Source: Acidimicrobiia bacterium
GTDB lineage: Bacteria; Acidobacteriota; Vicinamibacteria; Vicinamibacterales; CAVVIG01
Length of the DNA: 51,154 bases
Direction: 5' to 3'
Assembly: GCA_016871175.1 (NCBI GenBank)
Contig: VFZL01000031.1
Location: forward strand, 1 to 51,154
Each line of letters begins with the position of its first letter. Position 1 is the stretch's first letter. This document shows, one piece after another, positions 4,702 to 13,994 of this stretch. The notes beneath the pieces are model-generated. The model saw only the letters and a program-made list of their open reading frames with translations. It searched no databases and was not told the DNA's origin. Both the position numbers and the translations under genes were made by a program.

Positions 4702-7368
4702 TCATCGAGCCGCCAGCCATTTCGCGAGCTCGCCGGCCTGTGCCTCTCGTAAAGCGATGCAGCTGTCGATCCGTTCGAGCGATTGCGCCAGCGCCCGCTC
4801 GCCGCTCCGGAGCGCGTGAGTCTTGAAGAACGCTCGGATGTTGTCGCGCGTGGGTGTGTCGCAAAACGATCCGAGCGAGGCCGCGATGGTCGGGCCGCCA
4901 AGGAACGTGAGCGCGCGGGGCTCGAGCTCGTTCCAGCGGTGCTTCAAGAATGTCCAAGCGCGCGCGTTGGCGACGGGGCTGCCCAGGAGGCCCGCGAGGA
5001 ACTTCGGCACATCTTGAGCGCGGAGGCTCGGTGTCAACGTCAGGTCGAGGCTGCGTTGTACGAGCGTCGGGTCCTCGAAGGCTGTCAGGGCATGGAGGTA
5101 GCGATCACGCTCTTCGGGCGACGTCGCCAGACGTGAGGCCGCCAGGAATCGATCGTAGAGCTGCGTGTCGCCACGCCGGGCTGCGAACCGGACGAGCGAA
5201 TCGGCTGTCGCCGTGTCGAGCGGCCGCCGGCCATCGAGCGCCGCATCGACCGCTTCCCGGACATATGTCAAGACCGCCCCCTCGCCGCCGGCTGACGCCA
5301 TGAGCTGGAGCACGTAGGCGCGCAGCGTGGTGCGATCGGGATCCTCGCCGGGGATGGTGTTCGGTCCGAGCTCCTTGGCCAGTGGCTCGAAGAGACGCCG
5401 CACGAACCGATCGAAAGGCGGACGGGTTTTGGCGGTGGTCAGGTACGACTGCACCGTCGACAAACGGCTGCTGATCTGTGCCATGACCGCACTGGAAGTC
5501 TCCCGTCCGAATCCGTTGATCAGCGTCAGGTAGTCGCCAATCGTGTGATGCCCGGATCGCACGAGCGCCCATTCGTCCCCGAGCAACGACAAGCGCTCGG
5601 GCGCGCTCAGCAGCGTTTGAACACGCGGCGCCATCGCGGCGAGCACGGTCTGTGGGTACTCGGTGCGGTAGTAGCCGGTCGCGCCCGCGTTAGCGAACGT
5701 CCACGGTGTGGGGCACTGAAACCCCGCTCCGACCCCGGCACGGATCGAGCGCGGACGGTCCCGTGGGAGGATCTGGCAGTCCGGTGAGGAAGCGTGATCG
5801 TCCTTCAGGCACACGGGGACGTTCCACGTCAGCGCCCGAGGTGCCGTGCCGCCGGTCGAGATGATGAAGCGCTCCTGTGTGAAGGTGCGCTGGATGCCGC
5901 TGCCATCACATGCGTACCCCACCCGTACGAGCGGCGCGCCGGGCTGTGTGATGAACGAGGACAGGATGGCGTCGACGGGTCGTCCCGACGATTCCGCCAA
6001 GACGGTCCAGAAGTCGCGTGAGGTGGCATTCCTGTAGGCGAACCGGGCGAGATAGGCGTTGACGCCCGCGCGAAACGCTTCGGGTCCGACGAACCCCTCC
6101 ACCATGCGCAGCAGCGAGGCTCCTTTCTCGTACGCGATGGGATCAAAGAGGCTGTCGATGTCGCTGGAGGTCTCGACCGGCGACTGAATCGCCCTCGTCG
6201 AGGCGAGGCTGTCCAGCTCCAGCGCCGCCTGCGTTTCTCGCGCCTCATCGATCTCAATCCGCCACTCGGGTTTCCAGGCGGCCACCGGTCGATTCTGCAT
6301 CCAGGTTGCGAATCCCTCGTTGAGCCACAAGTCGTCCCACCAGGCCATCGTGACGAGGTTGCCGAACCACTGATGCGCCAGCTCGTGCGCGAGCACGGAG
6401 GCGATGTTCTTGCGCGTGGTGACCGAGGCGGTGGCGGAGTCGGCGAGGAGCAGCGTCTCGCGATAGAAGATCGCGGCCGTGTTCTCCATGGCGCCGGCCG
6501 AGAAGTCTGGCACGGCCACCAGATCGATCTTCCCGAACGGGTATTTGATCTCGTAGTAGCGGTTGAGCAACGGGACGATCTGCTCGGCTGCCTCGAGCGC
6601 CAGTCTCCCAAGATGCGTCTTGTCGGGCGTGGCGCAGACACGGACGGGAATGTCGTCCGCCGTTCCAGACAGGCACGTGAAGTCGCCGACCGCGAGCGCG
6701 ACGAGGTAGGTCGACATCTTCGCGGTCCTCGAGAAGCGGAGTGTGTGGCGGTTCGGGCCAGGGCCGGGGGTGTCGGCGATCATGCGGCCGTTCGAAATGG
6801 CGGTATCGCCCGCGTCGAGTGTCGCCGAGATGTCGAAGGTCGCCTTGAACGCCGGCTCGTCGAAGCTCGGGAAGGCGCGGCGTGCGTCGGTGGCCTCCAT
6901 CTGGCTCACGGCATACCGCCGACCGTTCGCGTGACTGAGATAGAGGCCGCGGAGCTGGTCGTTCAACACGCCGGTGTACGAGAAGCGGAGAGTGGCAGGC
7001 CCCGGCGCTATCGCCCGCGGCACGGTGAGTAGCGCGAGCTGACCGGTCAGGGACACCGACGCCCGCTGCGTCGTGCCTGTGCTCTCGACCGTGACCTCGC
7101 GAAATGTGATGTCGACCGCGTGCAGCAGTACGCGGGTGGTCGCCTCCTCGACCTGGATGTGAATCGCCTCGGTCCCGGTGAACCGCGCGCGCTCGAGATC
7201 GATGTCGAACGCCAGCTCGTAGTGCTCCGGCCGCACTGTCGTGGGCAGTCGCTGTGCCTCCGCCTCGCGAGGGCCGGCGAACGCGATGGCGGCAGCACCG
7301 AGGAACGCTAGAGGCCACACGTGGCCCGAGGGACGAGAGCGCAAGGTAGGTAACAATGAGGCCCGCAT
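4702..7368 (-). CDS. Secreted M1-family zinc aminopeptidase
   Basis: This 888-residue M1 metallopeptidase resembles aminopeptidase N and removes N-terminal residues from peptides. The exopeptidase signature GAMEN is at about residues 292-296. The zinc motif HELAH is at about 328-332, with the third ligand Glu in NEGFATW downstream. The C-terminal half resembles the helical ERAP1-C-type domain of M1 enzymes. The ATG at 7368 was chosen because it starts a clear signal peptide: basic residues, then PLAFLGAAAIAFAG, then a likely cleavage after AEA near residue 36. The frame is open a further 22 codons upstream, without signal-peptide character. Export to the periplasm or beyond is likely. The gene is divergent from the sulfur-assimilation leader. 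Confidence 0.92.
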   Translation of the reverse strand: MRASLLPTLRSRPSGHVWPLAFLGAAAIAFAGPREAEAQRLPTTVRPEHYELAFDIDLERARFTGTEAIHIQVEEATTRVLLHAVDITFREVTVESTGTTQRASVSLTGQLALLTVPRAIAPGPATLRFSYTGVLNDQLRGLYLSHANGRRYAVSQMEATDARRAFPSFDEPAFKATFDISATLDAGDTAISNGRMIADTPGPGPNRHTLRFSRTAKMSTYLVALAVGDFTCLSGTADDIPVRVCATPDKTHLGRLALEAAEQIVPLLNRYYEIKYPFGKIDLVAVPDFSAGAMENTAAIFYRETLLLADSATASVTTRKNIASVLAHELAHQWFGNLVTMAWWDDLWLNEGFATWMQNRPVAAWKPEWRIEIDEARETQAALELDSLASTRAIQSPVETSSDIDSLFDPIAYEKGASLLRMVEGFVGPEAFRAGVNAYLARFAYRNATSRDFWTVLAESSGRPVDAILSSFITQPGAPLVRVGYACDGSGIQRTFTQERFIISTGGTAPRALTWNVPVCLKDDHASSPDCQILPRDRPRSIRAGVGAGFQCPTPWTFANAGATGYYRTEYPQTVLAAMAPRVQTLLSAPERLSLLGDEWALVRSGHHTIGDYLTLINGFGRETSSAVMAQISSRLSTVQSYLTTAKTRPPFDRFVRRLFEPLAKELGPNTIPGEDPDRTTLRAYVLQLMASAGGEGAVLTYVREAVDAALDGRRPLDTATADSLVRFAARRGDTQLYDRFLAASRLATSPEERDRYLHALTAFEDPTLVQRSLDLTLTPSLRAQDVPKFLAGLLGSPVANARAWTFLKHRWNELEPRALTFLGGPTIAASLGSFCDTPTRDNIRAFFKTHALRSGERALAQSLERIDSCIALREAQAGELAKWLAAR

Positions 7369-7439
7369 ACACCCAGTGTAGCGATTGGAGGCGGGGTTCG
7401 GACCGGCCCGGCTCCGGGGGGAAGCATCCCACAAGAGTC

Positions 7440-7469
7440 TTGACCCGAGCCCCCTAGGAAGAGGATAGT
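7440..7469 (+). promoter_or_regulatory. Putative sigma-70 promoter of the cysteine leader / siroheme-sulfite reductase operon
   Basis: TTGACC at 7440-7445 (5 of 6 matches to the -35 consensus) and GATAGT at 7464-7469 (4 of 6 to the -10) are separated by 18 bp. Transcription would start near 7476, only about 9 nt before the leader ATG at 7485. The AAGGG at 7471-7475 would then be outside the message and the leader peptide would be translated from a very short 5' UTR. A start slightly further upstream would keep AAGGG as a Shine-Dalgarno. The sequence alone does not decide between these. Confidence 0.55.
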
Positions 7470-7484
7470 GAAGGGCAAGTGTCG

Positions 7485-7559
7485 ATGGTCCTGTGTTCCT
7501 GTTGCTGTTGTTGCTGCGCGGCTGCGGGCAGCTCTCGCGCCACCGGTTCAGGTTCCTAG
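7485..7559 (+). CDS. Cysteine-run leader peptide (24 aa) of the siroheme/sulfite reductase operon
   Basis: The ORF is 25 codons including TAG at 7557-7559. It begins Met-Val-Leu-Cys-Ser, then has six consecutive Cys codons (7500-7517, three TGT and three TGC), followed by an Ala/Gly/Ser-rich tail. Seven of 24 residues are Cys. AAGGG at 7471-7475 is a possible Shine-Dalgarno, and GTG at 7479 is an in-frame alternative start. The ORF ends 46 nt before an intrinsic terminator, which in turn precedes the first gene of a sulfite-reduction operon. Cysteine is the end product of that pathway. This arrangement is that of an attenuation leader: ribosome stalling at the Cys run when Cys-tRNA is scarce would allow read-through. 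The +2 frame over the same bases gives a poly-Leu run, but it lacks a well-placed start signal and a functional rationale. Confidence 0.8.
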   Translation: MVLCSCCCCCCAAAGSSRATGSGS

Positions 7560-7607
7560 CGGGTAGATTTCACGGCATAGGCGATTCGCACCTGAACAGT
7601 TACTGGC
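7539..7607 (+). promoter_or_regulatory. Putative antiterminator stem of the cysteine attenuator
   Basis: Two perfectly complementary segments can pair: GTTCAGGT (7546-7553, inside the last leader codons) with ACCTGAAC (7590-7597). The stem extends, after a small internal loop, with GCCA (7539-7542) pairing TGGC (7604-7607). The outer pairs take the first bases of the terminator's 5' arm (7605-7607), so the structures compete. A ribosome stalled in the Cys run (7500-7517) would leave this stem free. A ribosome at the leader stop (7557-7559) would cover its 5' side and favour termination. The pairing was done by eye and no energies were computed. Confidence 0.55.
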
Positions 7608-7639
7608 CCGGGAGGCTCGTCGGCTTCCCGGGCTTTTTT
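7605..7639 (+). terminator. Intrinsic terminator/attenuator between leader ORF and first structural gene
   Basis: The arm at 7606-7616 (GCCCGGGAGGC) pairs with 7623-7633 in 11 bp with one G-T pair and a 6-nt loop (7617-7622). A run of six T follows (7634-7639). The upstream gene is divergent, with its start at 7368, so this terminator cannot end any known plus-strand gene other than the short leader. It lies 28 bp before the ATG of the precorrin-2 dehydrogenase gene. That position identifies it as an attenuator, not an ordinary operon end. Confidence 0.88.
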
Positions 7640-7667
7640 GTTTCCGTCGGTTGCGCTGTTACGAACG

Positions 7668-8285
7668 ATGGCCTCTGAGCTGCTGCCAATCTTCCTGGAC
7701 CTTACGGGCCGCCGGGTGCTCGTCGTCGGCGCCGGTCCGGTTGCTGTGTCGAAGCTCGAAACGCTGCGGTCGACGGGAGCCGACCTCCGAGTGGTGGCGC
7801 CGGACATCCGCCCCGAAATTGCCGAGGCGGCGTCGGCTGGCGCGCTCGCCGTCGTGCGGCGCGCCTTCGACCCTCGTGACCTCGACGATGTGTGGCTGGT
7901 GATCGCCGCGGCTCCCCCCGATGTGAATCGCACGGTGGCCGAGGCGGCGCGAGAGCGTCGCGTCTTCGTCAACGCGGTGGACGACCCGGTGAACGCCACG
8001 GCCTATCTTGGCGGTGTCGTGCGCCGCGACGGCATCACGCTGGCGATCTCGAGCCGCGGCACCGCCCCGGGACTCACGGGTCTGCTGCGTGAGGCGCTCG
8101 ATGCGGTGCTGCCGCGCGATCTGCGCCTCTGGATGGACGAGGCGCGGCTGCAGCGCGTGCGTTGGCGCCGTGACGGCGTGCCGATGCAGGCGCGGCGTCC
8201 GCTCCTCCTGCACGCGTTGAATGTCCTCTATGCTCGGCGGACGAAGGTACCCGACCATCCGTCTGTGGAACAGCCATGCCCGTAA
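7668..8285 (+). CDS. Precorrin-2 dehydrogenase / sirohydrochlorin ferrochelatase (siroheme synthase N-terminal type)
   Basis: This 205-residue protein matches the N-terminal half of CysG and stand-alone Met8p/SirC-type enzymes. These oxidise precorrin-2 to sirohydrochlorin with NAD+ and, in many members, insert iron to give siroheme. The dinucleotide-binding motif GRRVLVVGAGPVAVSK is near the N-terminus, after the typical LLPIFLDLTGR start. The ATG at 7668 was chosen because family homology begins at once (MASELLPIFLDL). The reading frame is open ten codons further back to a TTG inside the terminator T-run, which is unlikely to be used. The gene is the first downstream of the Cys attenuator and overlaps the methyltransferase gene by 10 bp. 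Siroheme is the cofactor of the sulfite reductase encoded next in the operon. Confidence 0.92.
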   Translation: MASELLPIFLDLTGRRVLVVGAGPVAVSKLETLRSTGADLRVVAPDIRPEIAEAASAGALAVVRRAFDPRDLDDVWLVIAAAPPDVNRTVAEAARERRVFVNAVDDPVNATAYLGGVVRRDGITLAISSRGTAPGLTGLLREALDAVLPRDLRLWMDEARLQRVRWRRDGVPMQARRPLLLHALNVLYARRTKVPDHPSVEQPCP

Positions 8286-9121
8286 GCCCGCGTCCAAGGG
8301 GCCGAGTGTCGCTCGTGGGAGCAGGTCCCGGCGATCCGGCGCTGCTGACACGACGTGCGGCGAGCCGTCTCCGCGCCGCCGATCTCGTGCTCTTCGATGC
8401 GCTGGTCGACGAGCGGTTGCTGACGCTGGCCGCGCGCGCGCAACGCTTCTTCGTCGGCAAGCGGGCCGGACGGCACGCGTTGACGCAGGATGAGATCAAC
8501 AACATCATGATCCGCGCCGCGCAGCGTGGACGCCGTGTCGTCCGCCTCAAGGGCGGCGATCCGTTCGTGTTCGGTCGGGGCGGCGAAGAGGCTCAGGCGC
8601 TCCAGGCCGCCGGCGTGCCCTTCGAAGTGGTGCCAGGCGTAAGCAGCGTGCTTGCCGGTCCCGCGCTGGCCGGCATTCCGGTCACGCAGCGTGGCGTGGC
8701 TGGTGCGGTGCTCGTCACCACCGGGCACGACGAGTCGGCCTTTGCCGCGCAGGTTGGCCAGTTGTCGCCCGGTGGCGTGACGCTCGTGGTAGCGATGGGC
8801 CACGCGCGCCGCGCGGCGCTCGCCGGGGTGCTGCGAGCGGCCGGATGGCCCACCGACACGCCGGCCGCCGTCGTGGCCAGCGCCTCCTCGCCGCGGCAGT
8901 ACGTCTGGCGGGGGACGATCGAACGCCTCGAGCAGGGCGAGGGCGGGTTGGACGGCGATTCGCCAGCGCTGCTCGTCGTCGGACAGGTAGCGGCGCTGGA
9001 TCTGACGAGCGCCCCTATCAACCGGGTGGCGCGTCGTCGTGATGATCGGCGGGGGATTCGCCCCCGCTCGACTGAGCCGGACGCGCTCCGATCGCCAGTC
9101 GTCCGGCGCGGCGAGCGGTAA
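8276..9121 (+). CDS. cobA: Uroporphyrinogen-III C-methyltransferase
   Basis: This 281-residue SUMT uses two SAM to methylate uroporphyrinogen III at C2 and C7, giving precorrin-2, the substrate of the enzyme encoded just upstream. The tetrapyrrole methylase motifs are clear: VSLVGAGPGDPALLTRRA at the N-terminus, VRLKGGDPFVFGRGGEEA near residue 90, then VVPGVSSVLAGPALAGIPVT and VTTGHDE. The enzyme is separate from the dehydrogenase/ferrochelatase, not fused as in enterobacterial CysG. The start overlaps the preceding gene by 10 bp. About 30 residues at the C-terminus are Arg-rich and look family-atypical. Supply of precorrin-2 for siroheme is the obvious role here, although SUMT can also serve cobalamin synthesis. 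Confidence 0.94.
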   Translation: MPVSPRPRGRVSLVGAGPGDPALLTRRAASRLRAADLVLFDALVDERLLTLAARAQRFFVGKRAGRHALTQDEINNIMIRAAQRGRRVVRLKGGDPFVFGRGGEEAQALQAAGVPFEVVPGVSSVLAGPALAGIPVTQRGVAGAVLVTTGHDESAFAAQVGQLSPGGVTLVVAMGHARRAALAGVLRAAGWPTDTPAAVVASASSPRQYVWRGTIERLEQGEGGLDGDSPALLVVGQVAALDLTSAPINRVARRRDDRRGIRPRSTEPDALRSPVVRRGER

Positions 9122-9151
9122 TGGGCCATCGAGGCAGCAAAAGGGGAAGTC

Positions 9152-10984
9152 ATGTCTGCGACTGACACTACGAACACGCACGGTCGGACCCGCCTATCGT
9201 TTGCAACCGTCGCGGATATCGACGAGTTCGTGTCGACGCTCGAGCGCTATGAGCGCGGCGAGTTGAGCGCGGACCAGTGGCGTGCGTTCCGCTTGGTTCG
9301 CGGCACCTATGGTCAACGGCAGTCCTACGACGCCTCGATGCTGCGCGTGAAGGTCCCGCAAGGGGTGCTCGACAAGGCCCAGCTCTATGCGTTGGCGGCG
9401 GCAGGCGAGAAGTACTCGCGGACGTTTGGCCATATCACCACGAGGCAGAACATCCAACTTCACTTCATCAAGCTGCACGACATCGAGCACGCCATGCGCG
9501 ATCTCGCGGCGTCGGGACTGACGACGCGCGAGGCGTGCGGCAATTCAGTCCGCAACATCACCGGCTGTCCGTACGCCGGTGTCTCGGCCACAGAAGTCTT
9601 CGACGTCACGCCGTACGCGGAGGGGTTGACCCGGTTTTTCTTGCGGCATCCGCTGGCGGCGATCCTGCCTCGGAAATTCAAGATCGCGTTCGAGGGTTGC
9701 GCGGAGGATCATATCGCGCTCCCCATCAACGACCTGGGATTCAAGGCGGCGCTGGGCCCAGACGGCACGCGGGGCTTCCGCATTACTGCGGGCGGCGGCA
9801 CGGCGATCATGTGCACCAACGCCGGCAAGCTGCACGACTTCATTCCGGCCAGCGAGATACTCCGCGTGGGCGAGTCGGTCCTGAAAGTCTTCCGTCAGTT
9901 TGGGGACTTCCAGCACAAGCAACGCAACCGGATGAAGTTCATGATCAAGTCGATCGGGTGGGACCGCTTCGTCGCGGAGTACCAGCGCGAGCTGGCCGCG
10001 GCGCGCGAGGCGAACGTGCCGACCCTCGACATCGATCCGCCAGCCGAGGAAACCAAGCCGGAGCGGTCGCGTCCAGCGCCGCCCGCGCCGCCACTCATCG
10101 GCGCCCGAGTGGCAGCCGCACCACCGTCGGGCCCGGGCGTCACGCCCGTCGTTGTCCCGGTCTACCAGACCACGGACGAGATGTACATCCGTTGGCGGGG
10201 CACGAACGTGCATCCGCAGAAGCAGTTCGGGTACTCCATCGTGACGGCGACGGTACCGCTGGGCGATCTGACGAGCGAGCAGATGCGCGTGATCGGCGAT
10301 CTGGCGGAGGCGTACGGCGACGGGTCGGTCCGGGTGACGATGGAGCAGGACCTTGTGTTCAGATGGGTCCGCGTGGGCGAAGTGCACGAGCTGTATCAGC
10401 GCCTCGCCGCCGCCGGGCTCGGCCTCGCTGAGGCGGCGACCGTTGCCGACGTGACGAGCTGCCCAGGTGCGGAGTCGTGCCGACTGGCGGTCACACAGTC
10501 TCGCGGCCTCGGGCGGCTGCTCGAGGAGCATCTGCGCGCGCGCCCGGATTTGGTCGCGGCCGCAGACGGTGCCCGCATCAAGATCAGCGGATGTCCGAAC
10601 GGCTGCGGTCAGCATCACGTCGCCACCATCGGCTTCCAGGGCAGTGTTCGGAAGGTCGGCACCCGAGCGGTGCCGCAGTACTTCGTGCTCATCGGCGGCG
10701 GCACCACCGCCGACGGGGCGTCGTTCGGCCGATTGGCGGCGAAGATTCCCGCGCGCCGCATCCCGCAGGCGGTCGAGCGGCTGATCAATCTGTATGCGAT
10801 CGAGAAGTCCGCCAACGAGTCTGCGCCGACCTTCTTCGCGCGCGTGGATCTGAAACGGGTCCAACGCGAACTCCTCGATCTCCAGAACTTCACCGAGGCC
10901 GACGCCGTGCCGCTCGATTTCGTCGATCTCGCGGAGACGGGTGAGTACACGCCCGAGGTGATGGAAGGGGAATGCTCCGCGTGA
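9152..10984 (+). CDS. Ferredoxin-type sulfite (or nitrite) reductase with siroheme and [4Fe-4S]
   Basis: This 610-residue enzyme of the NirA/Sir family reduces sulfite to sulfide with six electrons. The cluster-binding cysteines are present: C437-x5-C443 in TSCPGAESC and C481-x3-C485 in SGCPNGCG. The two ferredoxin-like half domains are both visible. They are joined by a Pro/Ala-rich linker around residues 290-335, longer than I would expect. A strong Shine-Dalgarno (AAGGGGAAG) precedes the ATG at 9152. The family includes assimilatory nitrite reductases. The siroheme genes upstream and the Cys-rich leader argue for sulfite, and no nitrate reductase or nitrite transporter is nearby. No sulfate activation genes (ATP sulfurylase, APS reductase) are in the window. 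Confidence 0.9.
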   Translation: MSATDTTNTHGRTRLSFATVADIDEFVSTLERYERGELSADQWRAFRLVRGTYGQRQSYDASMLRVKVPQGVLDKAQLYALAAAGEKYSRTFGHITTRQNIQLHFIKLHDIEHAMRDLAASGLTTREACGNSVRNITGCPYAGVSATEVFDVTPYAEGLTRFFLRHPLAAILPRKFKIAFEGCAEDHIALPINDLGFKAALGPDGTRGFRITAGGGTAIMCTNAGKLHDFIPASEILRVGESVLKVFRQFGDFQHKQRNRMKFMIKSIGWDRFVAEYQRELAAAREANVPTLDIDPPAEETKPERSRPAPPAPPLIGARVAAAPPSGPGVTPVVVPVYQTTDEMYIRWRGTNVHPQKQFGYSIVTATVPLGDLTSEQMRVIGDLAEAYGDGSVRVTMEQDLVFRWVRVGEVHELYQRLAAAGLGLAEAATVADVTSCPGAESCRLAVTQSRGLGRLLEEHLRARPDLVAAADGARIKISGCPNGCGQHHVATIGFQGSVRKVGTRAVPQYFVLIGGGTTADGASFGRLAAKIPARRIPQAVERLINLYAIEKSANESAPTFFARVDLKRVQRELLDLQNFTEADAVPLDFVDLAETGEYTPEVMEGECSA

Positions 10985-11022
10985 CCGCATATCGACGGAT
11001 GTAGATATAGCGATAAAACTTC

Positions 11023-11052
11023 TTGCCACGGCGATCGGCGCTACGGTATAGT
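11023..11052 (+). promoter_or_regulatory. Putative sigma-70 promoter upstream of the SAM riboswitch
   Basis: TTGCCA (11023-11028) and TATAGT (11047-11052) each match the consensus at 5 of 6 positions and are 18 bp apart. Transcription would begin near 11059, just before the riboswitch aptamer. This suggests the downstream gene has its own promoter and is not only read through from the sulfite reductase operon. Confidence 0.65.
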
Positions 11053-11070
11053 CGCCGATGTCGGTAGCGC

Positions 11071-11226
11071 TCTTATCGAGAGTGGCTGAGGGACAGGCCC
11101 TGTGATGCCACGGCAACCTCCGCCTCCGCTGCGGGAGGTGCCAAATCCTGCCCAACAACGCGGCGCGGCACGGCCGATCGCGACGGGTTCGCGTGGCTTC
11201 GCCTGGCGTGATTGGGGAAGATGAGA
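11071..11226 (+). ncRNA. SAM-I (S-box) riboswitch aptamer
   Basis: The conserved core is easily recognised. The 5' part is TCTTATCGAGAGTGGCTGAG followed by GGACAGGCCCTGTGATGCC and CGGCAACC. A P3 hairpin follows (CCTCCGC...GCGGGAGG), then GTGCCAAATCCTGCCC. The P1 helix closes between TCTTATC (11071-11077) and GATGAGA (11220-11226) with one G-T pair. The P4 region (about 11149-11217) is unusually long, with CCCAA/TTGGG and CGC/GCG pairs at its base. Downstream, CCGGG (11251-11255) and CCCGG (11262-11266) form a short hairpin without a convincing T-run. The segment 11251-11258 could instead pair with GTTCCCCGG (11344-11352), reaching the Shine-Dalgarno of the next gene, so control may be translational. 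The rest of the 11227-11359 leader holds no ORF I can support. Confidence 0.9.
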
Positions 11227-11359
11227 AGGTCGTGAATCCATTTCTGACGTCCGGGAACAGCCCCGGCTCTTGTGGTTCGGCGCTCTGCACCCCTGCCCTG
11301 TCGCGTTCCATCGACCACCCCTCGTTCCCACGCCCGCGTCATCGTTCCCCGGAGGTTCC

Positions 11360-12604
11360 GTGAGCCCTCTTCTCGGCCTGCAATGTCACCTGTGCAAGTC
11401 TGTGTTTCCGCCGGAGGCCGTATACGCGTGTGGGAAGTGTCTCGGACCACTCGAGCCCATCTACGACTACGCACGCGTCACCCTCACGCGCGACACGATC
11501 GAGCGACGGCCGAAGAACATCTGGCGCTACCGTGAGCTCCTGCCGATCACCGGCGAGCCGCGGACCGGATTTCACACCGGATTCACGCCGCTCGTCCGCG
11601 CGACTCGACTCGCCGAGCGTTTGGGTGTGCGCGAGCTGTACCTAAAAGACGACTCCGTGAATCACCCGACGCTGTCCTACAAGGACCGCGTGGTGTCGGT
11701 GGCGGCCACGCGCGCTGCCGAGCTCGGCTTCAAGGTGCTCGCGTGTGCGTCCACCGGAAACCTGGCCAACAGCGTGGCTGCCCACGCCGCACGACTCGGG
11801 ATGGAATGCTGCGTGTTCATTCCCGACAATCTCGAAGCCGGCAAGCGGATGGGCTCCGCGATATTCGGTCCGCAGATTCTGGCGATCGACGGGAACTACG
11901 ACGATGTCAATCGGCTGTGTTCGCAGGTGGCGGATCGGTACGGCTGGGGGTTCGTGAACATCAACCTCCGCGCCTACTACGCCGAAGGCGCCAAGACGAT
12001 GGGGTTCGAGATCGTCGAGCAGCTTGGCTGGCGCTATCCGCAGCACATCGTGCTCCCGGTCGCAGGCGGGACGCTGCTGCCGCGCGTGGTCCGTGGTCTG
12101 CGAGAGCTTGAGCGCGTAGGTCTGGTCGACGGTGCGCTGCCACGAATCCATGCCGCACAGGCGGCTGGCTGTGCGCCAGTGGTCACCGCATTGGCCAATG
12201 GGGAGGACTATCCCGAGCCAGTTCGGCCGAACACGATCGCCAAATCGATTGCCATCGGCAATCCAGCTGACGGTTACCAGGTGATTCAGACGGTCCGACA
12301 GACGGGTGGCAGTGGCATCAGCGTGCCCGACGACGAGATCGTCCACGCGATTCACCTCCTCGCGGAGACCGAGGGAATTTTCACCGAGCCGGCGGGGGGC
12401 ACGACGCTCGCGGGCGCGATGGCGCTCATCGCGCAGGGCGCCATCCCGTGCGATGAGTCAGTGGTCGTGTGTATCACCGGAAACGGCTACAAAACCACTG
12501 AGGTCGTCGCTGGCCAGGTCGCTGAGCCGGTTCATCTCAGTCGCGGGTTCAAGGACTTCGAGTCCTGGCAGCAGACTCGGGCGGCGAGCCACGTCCCCGC
12601 CTAG
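11360..12604 (+). CDS. Threonine synthase-like PLP enzyme (possibly O-phosphohomoserine-dependent sulfur amino acid enzyme)
   Basis: This 414-residue fold-type II PLP enzyme has the threonine synthase pattern. An N-terminal zinc ribbon has Cys at 9, 12, 24 and 27, followed by a GFHTGFTPLVRATRL segment. The PLP lysine is K108 in LSYKDRVVSVAA, the phosphate-binding loop region is CASTGNLANSVAAH, and a Gly-rich segment near the end reads CITGNGYKTTE. The GTG at 11360 is chosen for the adjacent GGAGG (11351-11355). The frame continues upstream without homology. Threonine synthase converts O-phosphohomoserine to threonine. The SAM-I riboswitch directly upstream and the sulfite reductase gene before it fit poorly with threonine and better with homocysteine or related synthesis. 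The fold also includes cysteate synthase. The name is secure at family level only. Confidence 0.85.
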   Translation: MSPLLGLQCHLCKSVFPPEAVYACGKCLGPLEPIYDYARVTLTRDTIERRPKNIWRYRELLPITGEPRTGFHTGFTPLVRATRLAERLGVRELYLKDDSVNHPTLSYKDRVVSVAATRAAELGFKVLACASTGNLANSVAAHAARLGMECCVFIPDNLEAGKRMGSAIFGPQILAIDGNYDDVNRLCSQVADRYGWGFVNINLRAYYAEGAKTMGFEIVEQLGWRYPQHIVLPVAGGTLLPRVVRGLRELERVGLVDGALPRIHAAQAAGCAPVVTALANGEDYPEPVRPNTIAKSIAIGNPADGYQVIQTVRQTGGSGISVPDDEIVHAIHLLAETEGIFTEPAGGTTLAGAMALIAQGAIPCDESVVVCITGNGYKTTEVVAGQVAEPVHLSRGFKDFESWQQTRAASHVPA

Positions 12605-12619
12605 CCCCCGCCTAGCCCA

Positions 12620-13480
12620 ATGCGCTACACACCACGGGATGGGCGCAACATCGAGGATCGACGCGGGAGCCGCGGCGGGCGGGGATTCGGCAGCGCCGCA
12701 CCGATTGGCATCGGTGGGCTTCTGCTGCTGGTTCTGAGCTGGGCCACCGGCACGGATCTTCTGCAGCTGGTCGATTCCGGCGGGGGGGCTGGTGCCCCCT
12801 ACGTGCCGGAGTCCGCCGGTCCCGTGGAGGCGTCGCCGGCGGAGCAGCGGTTAGCGCAGTTCGTGGACGCCGTGGCGGGTGACACGCAGGACACGTGGGC
12901 TCGACTGCTTGGCGACCGGGATCAGCGCGTGCCCACCGTGCTCTTTCGTGACGAGACGCCCACGGCGTGCGGACAAGGAGCGGCAGCGACGGGGCCGTTC
13001 TACTGTCCCGCGGACCGGAAGGTCTATCTCGATCTGAGTTTCTTCGACGATCTCTCGCGGCGGTTTGGTGCACCTGGAGACTTCGCGCAAGCGTATGTCA
13101 TCGCGCACGAATACGGACACCACGTGCAGAACTTGCTCGGCTACAACGAGCGCGTCGGCAACGACCGGGCCGGGGCGAACAGCGCCGCCGTTGCGCTCGA
13201 ACTGCAGGCCGACTGTTTTGCGGGCGTGTGGGGACATGAACCGTCGCAGGGCGGTCGGTTCCAGCGAGGCCAAACGGAGCTCGACCCCGGCGACGCGGAA
13301 GAAGGGCTGCGGGCGGCCTCCGCGATCGGCGATGACCGGCTGCAAGAGATGGCCGGCGGCCGCGTGCAGCCGGAGCGCTTCACGCACGGCAGCTCTGCGC
13401 AGCGGATGGAGTGGTTCCGCCGAGGGTTCACGACCGGCGATCCACGTCAGTGCGATGCGTTCGCCGCCATCACGCAGTGA
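12620..13480 (+). CDS. Neutral zinc metallopeptidase of the YpfJ type
   Basis: This 286-residue protein belongs to the predicted neutral zinc metallopeptidase family (YpfJ-like, Pfam Zn_peptidase). It has a basic, Gly-rich N-terminus, then one membrane segment (IGIGGLLLLVLSWATG, about residues 30-46). The catalytic motif is VIAHEYGHHVQNLLG, about residues 156-170, and the third-ligand region is ELQADCFAG, about residues 193-201. The large C-terminal part is therefore probably periplasmic. Its substrate is unknown. The gene starts 15 bp after the PLP enzyme stop on the same strand. The link is probably proximity only, since the function seems unrelated. The length is normal for the family. Confidence 0.9.
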   Translation: MRYTPRDGRNIEDRRGSRGGRGFGSAAPIGIGGLLLLVLSWATGTDLLQLVDSGGGAGAPYVPESAGPVEASPAEQRLAQFVDAVAGDTQDTWARLLGDRDQRVPTVLFRDETPTACGQGAAATGPFYCPADRKVYLDLSFFDDLSRRFGAPGDFAQAYVIAHEYGHHVQNLLGYNERVGNDRAGANSAAVALELQADCFAGVWGHEPSQGGRFQRGQTELDPGDAEEGLRAASAIGDDRLQEMAGGRVQPERFTHGSSAQRMEWFRRGFTTGDPRQCDAFAAITQ

Positions 13481-13526
13481 ATTGAGCAGAGCCGCGGTGC
13501 TGTCGGCTGTCTGATTTCGCCCGCGT

Positions 13527-13994
13527 TCAATACAGGTCCCGTGGTCCTGGACGAATCTGGATGTTCGCCGTGGCCGTCGCGACCTGTTTGGATCGCTGCT
13601 TGAGATGAATCATCGGGCGGTAGGATCCCGCACGACGATAGATGTGGTCGATCGTGTAGCGGCGTCGGATCGAGGTCTTGCCTACCTCGTACGGTGGGCA
13701 GTCGACGTTGGATTCCGAAGTCGTGTCGTCCCCCCACTCCCACTCGACACCAGCACAGTAGTACTCCTCGAAGTCGTCAGCACCACCGACGAGTTCGGCT
13801 GTAAAGACGATTCGGGCCGGAGAGGTGCCGATCATCGGCTGCGCCCTGAGCTGAAGCCTGGGCCGGCGGTCGTTGTCGTTGTTGTTGTCGCGATTCCCAT
13901 CGCGGCGGCCCTCGCGCTGCGCGGCCCATGTCCCAGATGCGAGACACGCCACACCGAGCGCCAGAATGAGGACTCGGCCGGCAGTGGTGATCAT
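13527..13994 (-). CDS. Secreted PKD-like protein, function unknown
   Basis: This is a 155-residue exported protein. The ATG at 13994 was chosen because it begins a signal peptide (MITTAGRVLILALGVACLAS, cleavage after TWA) and has AGGAG about 8 nt upstream. The frame continues 20 codons further without signal character. The mature protein starts with a segment very rich in Arg, Asn and Asp. It then has a fold resembling a PKD/Ig-like beta sandwich: VEWEWGDDT in the middle and the later IDHIYRRAGSYRP, matching the WxWGD and HxY...G.Y pattern. Two Cys (in YYCAG and VDCPP) may form a disulfide. It is convergent with the zinc peptidase and divergent from leucyl aminopeptidase. I do not recognise a specific function. 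Confidence 0.75.
   Translation of the reverse strand: MITTAGRVLILALGVACLASGTWAAQREGRRDGNRDNNNDNDRRPRLQLRAQPMIGTSPARIVFTAELVGGADDFEEYYCAGVEWEWGDDTTSESNVDCPPYEVGKTSIRRRYTIDHIYRRAGSYRPMIHLKQRSKQVATATANIQIRPGPRDLY

Follow-up and report, generated by a model that had tools for sequence, protein, structure and literature searches.

A conserved candidate cysteine-responsive transcription attenuator ahead of siroheme and sulfite/nitrite reductase genes in Vicinamibacteria

Results

Genes and leader region at the locus

The window that we analysed is a stretch of 51,154 nucleotides from a genome of the class Vicinamibacteria. The leader stretch investigated here sits between a divergent aminopeptidase gene on the minus strand and a plus-strand cysG-cobA-sulfite/nitrite reductase cluster. 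The first gene after the leader is of the cysG N-terminal domain type (precorrin-2 dehydrogenase; 7668-8285, from ATG 7668; TIGR01470, 1.9e-38) and is followed on the same strand by a uroporphyrinogen-III C-methyltransferase gene (cobA/sumT; 8276-9121; TIGR01469, 4.1e-75) and the gene for a siroheme-type sulfite/nitrite reductase haemoprotein (9152-10984), which matches the NirA family best (NF007126) and also sulfite reductase (NF010029). All profile matches of the reductase are below the curated cut-offs, and its substrate may be sulfite or nitrite; if it acts on sulfite, the siroheme and reductase genes serve cysteine synthesis.

The initial annotation described the intergenic region as divergent, with no other plus-strand transcript to terminate, and the gene map agrees: because the upstream aminopeptidase gene is on the minus strand, no annotated plus-strand gene reads into the terminator described below. 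With the neighbour divergent, a terminator serving an upstream gene was set aside. A riboswitch or T-box was also set aside, since no Rfam family reaches its gathering score in the leader region. The five sub-threshold matches between 7380 and 7720 all involve sRNA or miRNA gene families, the best by E-value being sX11 (26.4 bits; gathering score 70). Further downstream, a SAM riboswitch (RF00162, 58.3 bits; 11075-11178, plus strand) lies between the reductase gene and a threonine-synthase-like gene (11330-12604), placing two different sulfur-linked leaders in succession in the window; SAM riboswitches were also found in three of 11 loci searched (L142, L145 and L150).

Promoter-like element, leader ORF and terminator

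A sequence scan places a promoter-like element, TTGACC-18-GATAGT, at 7440-7469 on the plus strand. Behind it lies a short leader ORF, VSMVLCSCCCCCCAAAGSSRATGSGS (7479-7559, plus strand, stop TAG 7557-7559), with a probable start at GTG 7479 and an alternative one at ATG 7485. The initial annotation had begun the ORF at the ATG, and that frame does read through as MVLCSCCCCCCAAAGSSRATGSGS, with 24 codons, seven Cys codons and the stop at 7557-7559. The GTG is nevertheless the likelier start, because the leader of a congener (L015) has the GTG and lacks the ATG; counted from there the ORF has 26 codons. The GTG also fits the spacing of start codons behind the -10 box seen elsewhere: among 81 leaders, 69 yielded a TTGAC-type promoter-like pair, under loose criteria and with no shuffle control, and under similarly loose criteria an in-frame ATG, GTG, TTG or CTG lies 4-16 nt past the -10 box in 67 of these 69, commonly at 7-10. 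Such a spacing would put the start codon only a few bases from where transcription is expected to begin, so that the mRNA from which the leader peptide is made is probably leaderless or close to it.

The putative control codons (7494-7517, plus strand) are a Cys codon at 7494-7496, a Ser codon and six tandem Cys codons at 7500-7517, the run reported in the initial annotation, so that the window leader carries seven codons for the amino acid of the presumed pathway. None of 20000 dinucleotide shuffles of 7366-7670 produced six tandem TGY codons, and a scan of both strands of the window recovered no other run of at least five. In the Cys clusters of the 81 leaders TGT is commoner than TGC (246 versus 130), against 21 TGT and 32 TGC among the Cys codons of nine genes of the window, the G+C content of which is about 66%; as the comparison genes come from one genome, this enrichment was kept out of the argument.

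An intrinsic terminator (7605-7639, plus strand) is predicted between the leader ORF and cysG. Its stem (7605-7634) has 13 pairs, rather than the 11 first counted, nine of them G-C, with a loop of four and a T run at 7634-7639. A loose scan of 7300-13600 gave two terminator-like sites versus 2.7 (sd 1.6) in shuffles. The site count is not above chance, and the argument therefore lies in the length of the window stem, which is far above the minimum of that scan, and in its recurrence. Under stricter criteria terminators occur in 46 of 98 stretches upstream of cysG in the class, versus 21 of 490 shuffles.

Conservation upstream of cysG

A search of 193 class genomes for the cysG protein gave matches in 114. 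The DNA upstream of cysG was taken as 30 loci and 70 further stretches; apart from 5' pieces of better matches, only matches of about 1e-48 or stronger were included, and a few genomes are counted twice. In a loose test 43 of the 100 stretches had a Cys-cluster ORF and a terminator 81-116 bases past the first Cys codon; one of them (L101) was dropped as doubtful from later counts, which leaves 42 leaders. A strict test, applied to the 98 stretches of useful length, asked for at least four Cys in six codons and a terminator 60-130 bases on. It was passed by 40 of the 98, versus 0 of 490 shuffles; the strict Cys ORF alone occurs in 41 stretches, again versus 0 of 490, and the terminator is in place in 40 of these 41.

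In the family of the window's genome cysG was found in 25 genomes, in two of which the contig ends first. A comparison with relatives, as proposed in the initial annotation, shows that the Cys run, its frame, the promoter-like site and the terminator recur, and the full element is present in 18 of the 23 genomes assessed; five have no Cys ORF at cysG. Two of the five have a terminator without the ORF (L003 in G069 and L006 in G046) and three have neither at cysG (G047, G045 and G055). The promoter-like site is retained in L003 and L006 too, which may represent natural experiments or decay; terminator-only matches to the leader model introduced below were also seen in L143 and L147. A second cysG copy in G057 (L088) has no leader element. 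Read by eye, cysG stands behind another gene in several leaderless places (L019, L022, L023, L025, L029 and L031), and in G178, G001 and G003 the leader is found further upstream, ahead of the first gene (L116, L117 and L125). The element at 7440-7639 is real and conserved.

Leaders ahead of other genes

The 42 leaders served to build a covariance model, R1. At E <=0.01 it finds matches in 148 of 192 class genomes, spread over 89 of 104 genera, and often in several places per genome. From its list we picked 40 further places by hand, mostly because they were not directly at cysG. A Cys-cluster ORF precedes the terminator in 39 of them, a count that arises partly by construction because R1 contains Cys codons.

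The first genes behind these 40 leaders, recognised by Pfam domains and the ORF list, include CysD or CysN type ATP sulfurylases (11), PAPS/APS reductases (CysH; five), Sat-type ATP sulfurylases (two) and a uroporphyrinogen methyltransferase (one); by domain, 19 of the 40 are genes of sulfate activation, sulfate reduction or siroheme synthesis. Two PALP-family pyridoxal-phosphate enzymes are probably cysteine synthases, which is their likely role, and four more targets may be linked to sulfur. Among the other first genes are one for a ThiF-JAB-rhodanese protein, two for TauE/SafE exporters, one for an NMT1-type binding protein, two with PF03601, and one for a porin that is followed by a solute-binding protein; five received no assignment. 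The name CysN rests on EF-Tu-type and eEF1A-type domains, the preceding CysD-like gene having been read for L105 only, and PF01507 covers both CysD and CysH, L121 and L131 being called CysD from alignments that span the protein as in L105.

Redoxin/AhpC proteins are encoded behind the remaining seven R1 matches (L109, L113, L119, L124, L133, L137 and L140). In L109 the redoxin gene is followed by a 1-Cys peroxiredoxin-type gene and a TauE gene, and in L119 a 1-Cys peroxiredoxin-type gene comes next. One of the two TauE/SafE cases is a second site in the window's own genome (L102, G000:C1:193500-196800), where a Cys leader with the peptide MSDLGRAACCCCTGTRCLRAGTFFVWDPKLRVT and a terminator precedes the permease gene. 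A search of this genome with R1 at thresholds up to E 10 yielded 21 matches; only those in the window and at G000:C1:193591 are strong, and the next has E 0.05.

Distribution beyond the class

Among 396 genomes of the phylum, about 350 of them sampled from other classes, 31 match R1 at E 1e-6, and all 31 are from the window's class. In the other classes of the phylum 99 genomes had a cysG match, and 20 upstream stretches were examined; by the same test none of the 20 has a terminator, and two have a Cys ORF of a chance-like kind. Of a set of 80 loci, 29 that carry labels other than Acidobacteria-type were scanned as well, among them L184, which belongs to the class genome G143. A Cys ORF without a terminator was found in two of them (L169 and L210), and R1 gave nothing below E 0.016 on the 29.

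Outside the class, a Cys-cluster ORF with no terminator is conserved about 100 bases upstream of cysG in L169 (539-613), L210 (identical to L234) and L236; of these three genomes two are labelled Deltaproteobacteria and one is from the class of L210. L234 and L236 were found among a set of 31 loci, in which L235 was read in the wrong orientation. By eye, the bases before the cysG start in these three look able to pair with an upstream stretch, an arrangement that would suit translational attenuation.

Predicted antiterminator and competing folds

The long-range stem proposed in the initial annotation, 7539-7542 with 7604-7607 and 7546-7553 with 7590-7597, is recovered as part of a longer set that includes two further helices, 7524-7529:7615-7620 and 7532-7537:7609-7614. 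In the computed folds, the part of the ORF at 7524-7553 (plus strand), segment 2, forms the 5' half of a candidate antiterminator by pairing with the terminator 5' arm and the bases preceding it. Segment 3 (7590-7620, plus strand), the 3' half, overlaps the entire terminator 5' arm, nearly all of which the predicted antiterminator occupies; segments 3 and 4 form the terminator. A tentative hairpin of segments 1 and 2 (7513-7532, plus strand; 7513-7517 with 7528-7532) in the local fold has its 5' arm in the last Cys codons. Its partners lie under the stalled ribosome in 41 of 42 leaders, and its energies are hardly better than those of shuffles (mean z -1.0, window -0.2).

The folds were then computed for RNA that stops at the loop of the terminator, because that is the moment of the choice: in the 42 leaders we considered the RNA left free by a ribosome on the middle Cys codon, with the polymerase just at the loop. 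The predicted partners of the terminator 5' arm are inside the ORF in 42 of 42, and in all 42 segment 2 starts 3-30 bases past the last clustered Cys codon and ends before the stop codon. A ribosome stalled on the Cys codons is predicted to expose these partners, and one at the stop codon to cover them. The arm has a mean pairing probability of 0.80 with the stalled ribosome, 0.63 with the upstream bases shuffled and 0.30 with the ribosome at the stop codon (0.92, 0.64 and 0.52 in the window), and a single leader, L015, pairs less than its own shuffles.

Leaders found with the model and not used to build it form a second set, from which L140, having no Cys ORF, was left out; the L109 row was kept, although it is on a different ORF from the one with CACC listed before. 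All arm partners are within the ORF in 38 of these 39 leaders. The mean pairing is 0.73 on a stall, 0.61 after shuffling and 0.32 with the ribosome at the stop codon; six leaders pair less than their own shuffles (L108, L109, L112, L115, L126 and L141).

When the arms were swapped among the 42 leaders, duplexes with the own arm had a mean energy of -17.9 kcal/mol versus -15.6 with swapped arms, a result equalled in 0 of 20000 permutations, ancestry not being corrected for; the corresponding counts were 0 of 20000 with 15 diverse leaders and 86 of 20000 in the second set. Single leaders show little: of the 42, just three have no swapped arm that does better than their own, and in two every swapped arm does (the own arm of the window has rank 13). 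With pairs taken from the folds, bases of the arm vary together with both of the partners open to them; one position, for example, shows G:C:C, A:U:U and C:G:G. RNAalifold returned the terminator alone from alignment A2, and the terminator with a doubtful three-pair hairpin from A1; the antiterminator, whose far arm aligns poorly, was recovered from neither.

The competing folds suggested in the initial annotation thus place the segments as attenuation requires, with an antiterminator whose 5' half would be covered at the stop codon and free on a stall. When the complete free RNA is folded to minimum energy with a stalled ribosome, 35 of 42 leaders, including that of the window, retain the terminator, five lose it wholly and two partly, so that for most leaders this test does not separate stalled from unstalled. 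Since the terminator is kept in these 35, antitermination must be kinetic, and we infer that the antiterminator would win by forming first, as in known attenuators.

Discussion

Comparison with known leaders

Classical amino-acid attenuators regulate the trp, his, leu and ilv operons. Descriptions of such attenuators (PMC1183508) share several features with the leader described here: an ORF with codons for the product of the pathway, an antiterminator in competition with an intrinsic terminator, and, as predicted from the folds, a segment 2 within the ORF. As far as computed folds can test, the defining features of the classical systems are present, the 1:2 hairpin being the tentative one among them. 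In contrast to those systems, cysteine would be the signal here, the start codon is probably nearly at the transcript end, and copies occur at many separate operons in one class.

Closer in its amino acid is the uORFC-8-2 motif upstream of cysS in Rhodobacterales, for which the motif description in PMC8632094 gives Cys codons in a short uORF and an intrinsic terminator; ribosome-mediated attenuation is predicted for that motif as it is for our leaders. According to the same description its two Cys codons stand in tandem, usually as codons 14-15, its target is a tRNA-synthetase gene and its distribution is alphaproteobacterial, whereas the leaders described here mostly have runs of 3-6 Cys codons and sulfur-assimilation targets and belong to Acidobacteriota. 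The window leader precedes another gene in another phylum and therefore lies outside that motif. The initial annotation called a Cys leader with an intrinsic terminator undescribed in this type of bacterium. For Acidobacteriota we found no report of one in the open-licence literature, although the combination itself, before cysS in Rhodobacterales, is in print (PMC8632094). Where PMC4833913 mentions Acidobacteria, in the sections available, it does so only for distances between leader genes and structural genes.

In 2005 Seliverstov predicted, for Mycobacterium, Propionibacterium acnes and Bifidobacterium longum, Cys leaders that have no conserved terminator hairpin (PMC1262725), and mycobacterial poly-Cys leaderless ORFs have been reported as attenuators (Canestrari 2020, as cited in PMC9031893, PMC9094748 and PMC13236596), with a translational mechanism according to the accounts in PMC13236596 and PMC9031893. 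Those ORFs and the ones studied here are alike in preceding cys operons and in being leaderless, as reported there and probably here. They differ in the terminator: the mycobacterial leaders as described in PMC1262725 have no conserved hairpin, whereas ours have a recurring terminator and a predicted antiterminator encoded in the ORF. The presence of this terminator places the window leader apart from the mycobacterial type.

Proposed mechanism and alternative explanations

The sequence and its comparison with relatives point to ribosome-mediated transcription attenuation in response to cysteine, of the classical trp/his kind, a reading to which we assign a probability of about 0.86. The initial annotation had arrived at the same reading, and the conservation of the element, the predicted placement of the competing segments and the occurrence of the leader ahead of other sulfur-assimilation genes all argue for it. 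Transcription would start a few bases before the leader ORF, with a ribosome trailing the polymerase. With ample Cys-tRNA the ribosome would pass the Cys codons, reach the stop codon and cover segment 2; segment 3 would then pair with segment 4, and RNA synthesis would end before cysG. When Cys-tRNA is scarce, the ribosome would halt on the Cys run. Segment 2, left free, would pair with segment 3 while segment 4 has yet to be synthesised, the terminator would be blocked, and cysG, cobA and the reductase gene would be transcribed. From these features we infer that the ORF is translated, that ribosomes stall on it, that the terminator is read through and that the system responds to cysteine.

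An alternative explanation is translational attenuation as in the mycobacterial poly-Cys leaderless ORFs, in which stalling would alter access to the cysG start and the hairpin would not be a working terminator. The start of the poly-Cys ORF probably lies at or near the transcript end, as in mycobacteria according to the account in PMC9031893, and the three genomes outside the class (L169, L210/L234 and L236) have a conserved Cys ORF before cysG with no terminator. In the class, however, the strict Cys ORF is accompanied at the right distance by a GC-rich stem with a T run in 40 of 41 stretches, and the predicted pairing of the ORF aims at the 5' arm of this terminator, which makes the translational explanation unlikely for the window leader. 

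The stall could also have another cause than a lack of Cys-tRNA, namely the nascent poly-Cys chain or its oxidised or metal-bound thiols, so that the switch would sense redox or metal state. The redoxin or AhpC-like genes behind seven of the 40 further leaders would fit such a sensor; about half of the 40 targets, however, make cysteine from sulfate, and leaders that lack long tandem runs, such as L020 with CGCACACC, are easier to reconcile with the counting of codons than with an arrest peptide. We consider this explanation very unlikely. Still less should be expected of the idea that the ORF encodes a working Cys-rich peptide that binds metals or thiols, with a terminator that just ends a small gene and allows some read-through. 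Up to nine Cys residues in a short peptide (L026) would suit this function, but outside the Cys run the sequence varies, both Cys codons are used, and the leader is repeated before many sulfur genes. In L010 and L016, moreover, the frames behind the run are offset from each other by one base, yet the two ORFs end in nearly the same position. Cysteine-responsive transcription attenuation remains the explanation that we prefer.

Significance

The principle is a textbook one, and the amino acid, the genes and the bacterial group make the setting unusual: terminator-based attenuation would be extended to cysteine and sulfate assimilation. Relatives that have the terminator and no ORF offer natural experiments. 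The leaders also raise the question whether repeated cis-acting elements with near-leaderless start codons can run a regulon. The odds seem to us even that in Vicinamibacteria the genes leading from sulfate to cysteine form one regulon of many cis-acting, leaderless Cys-codon attenuators, whose terminators re-evolve together with their own ORF-encoded antiterminators. In such a regulon the charging of Cys-tRNA, and not a dedicated transcription factor, would set sulfur assimilation.
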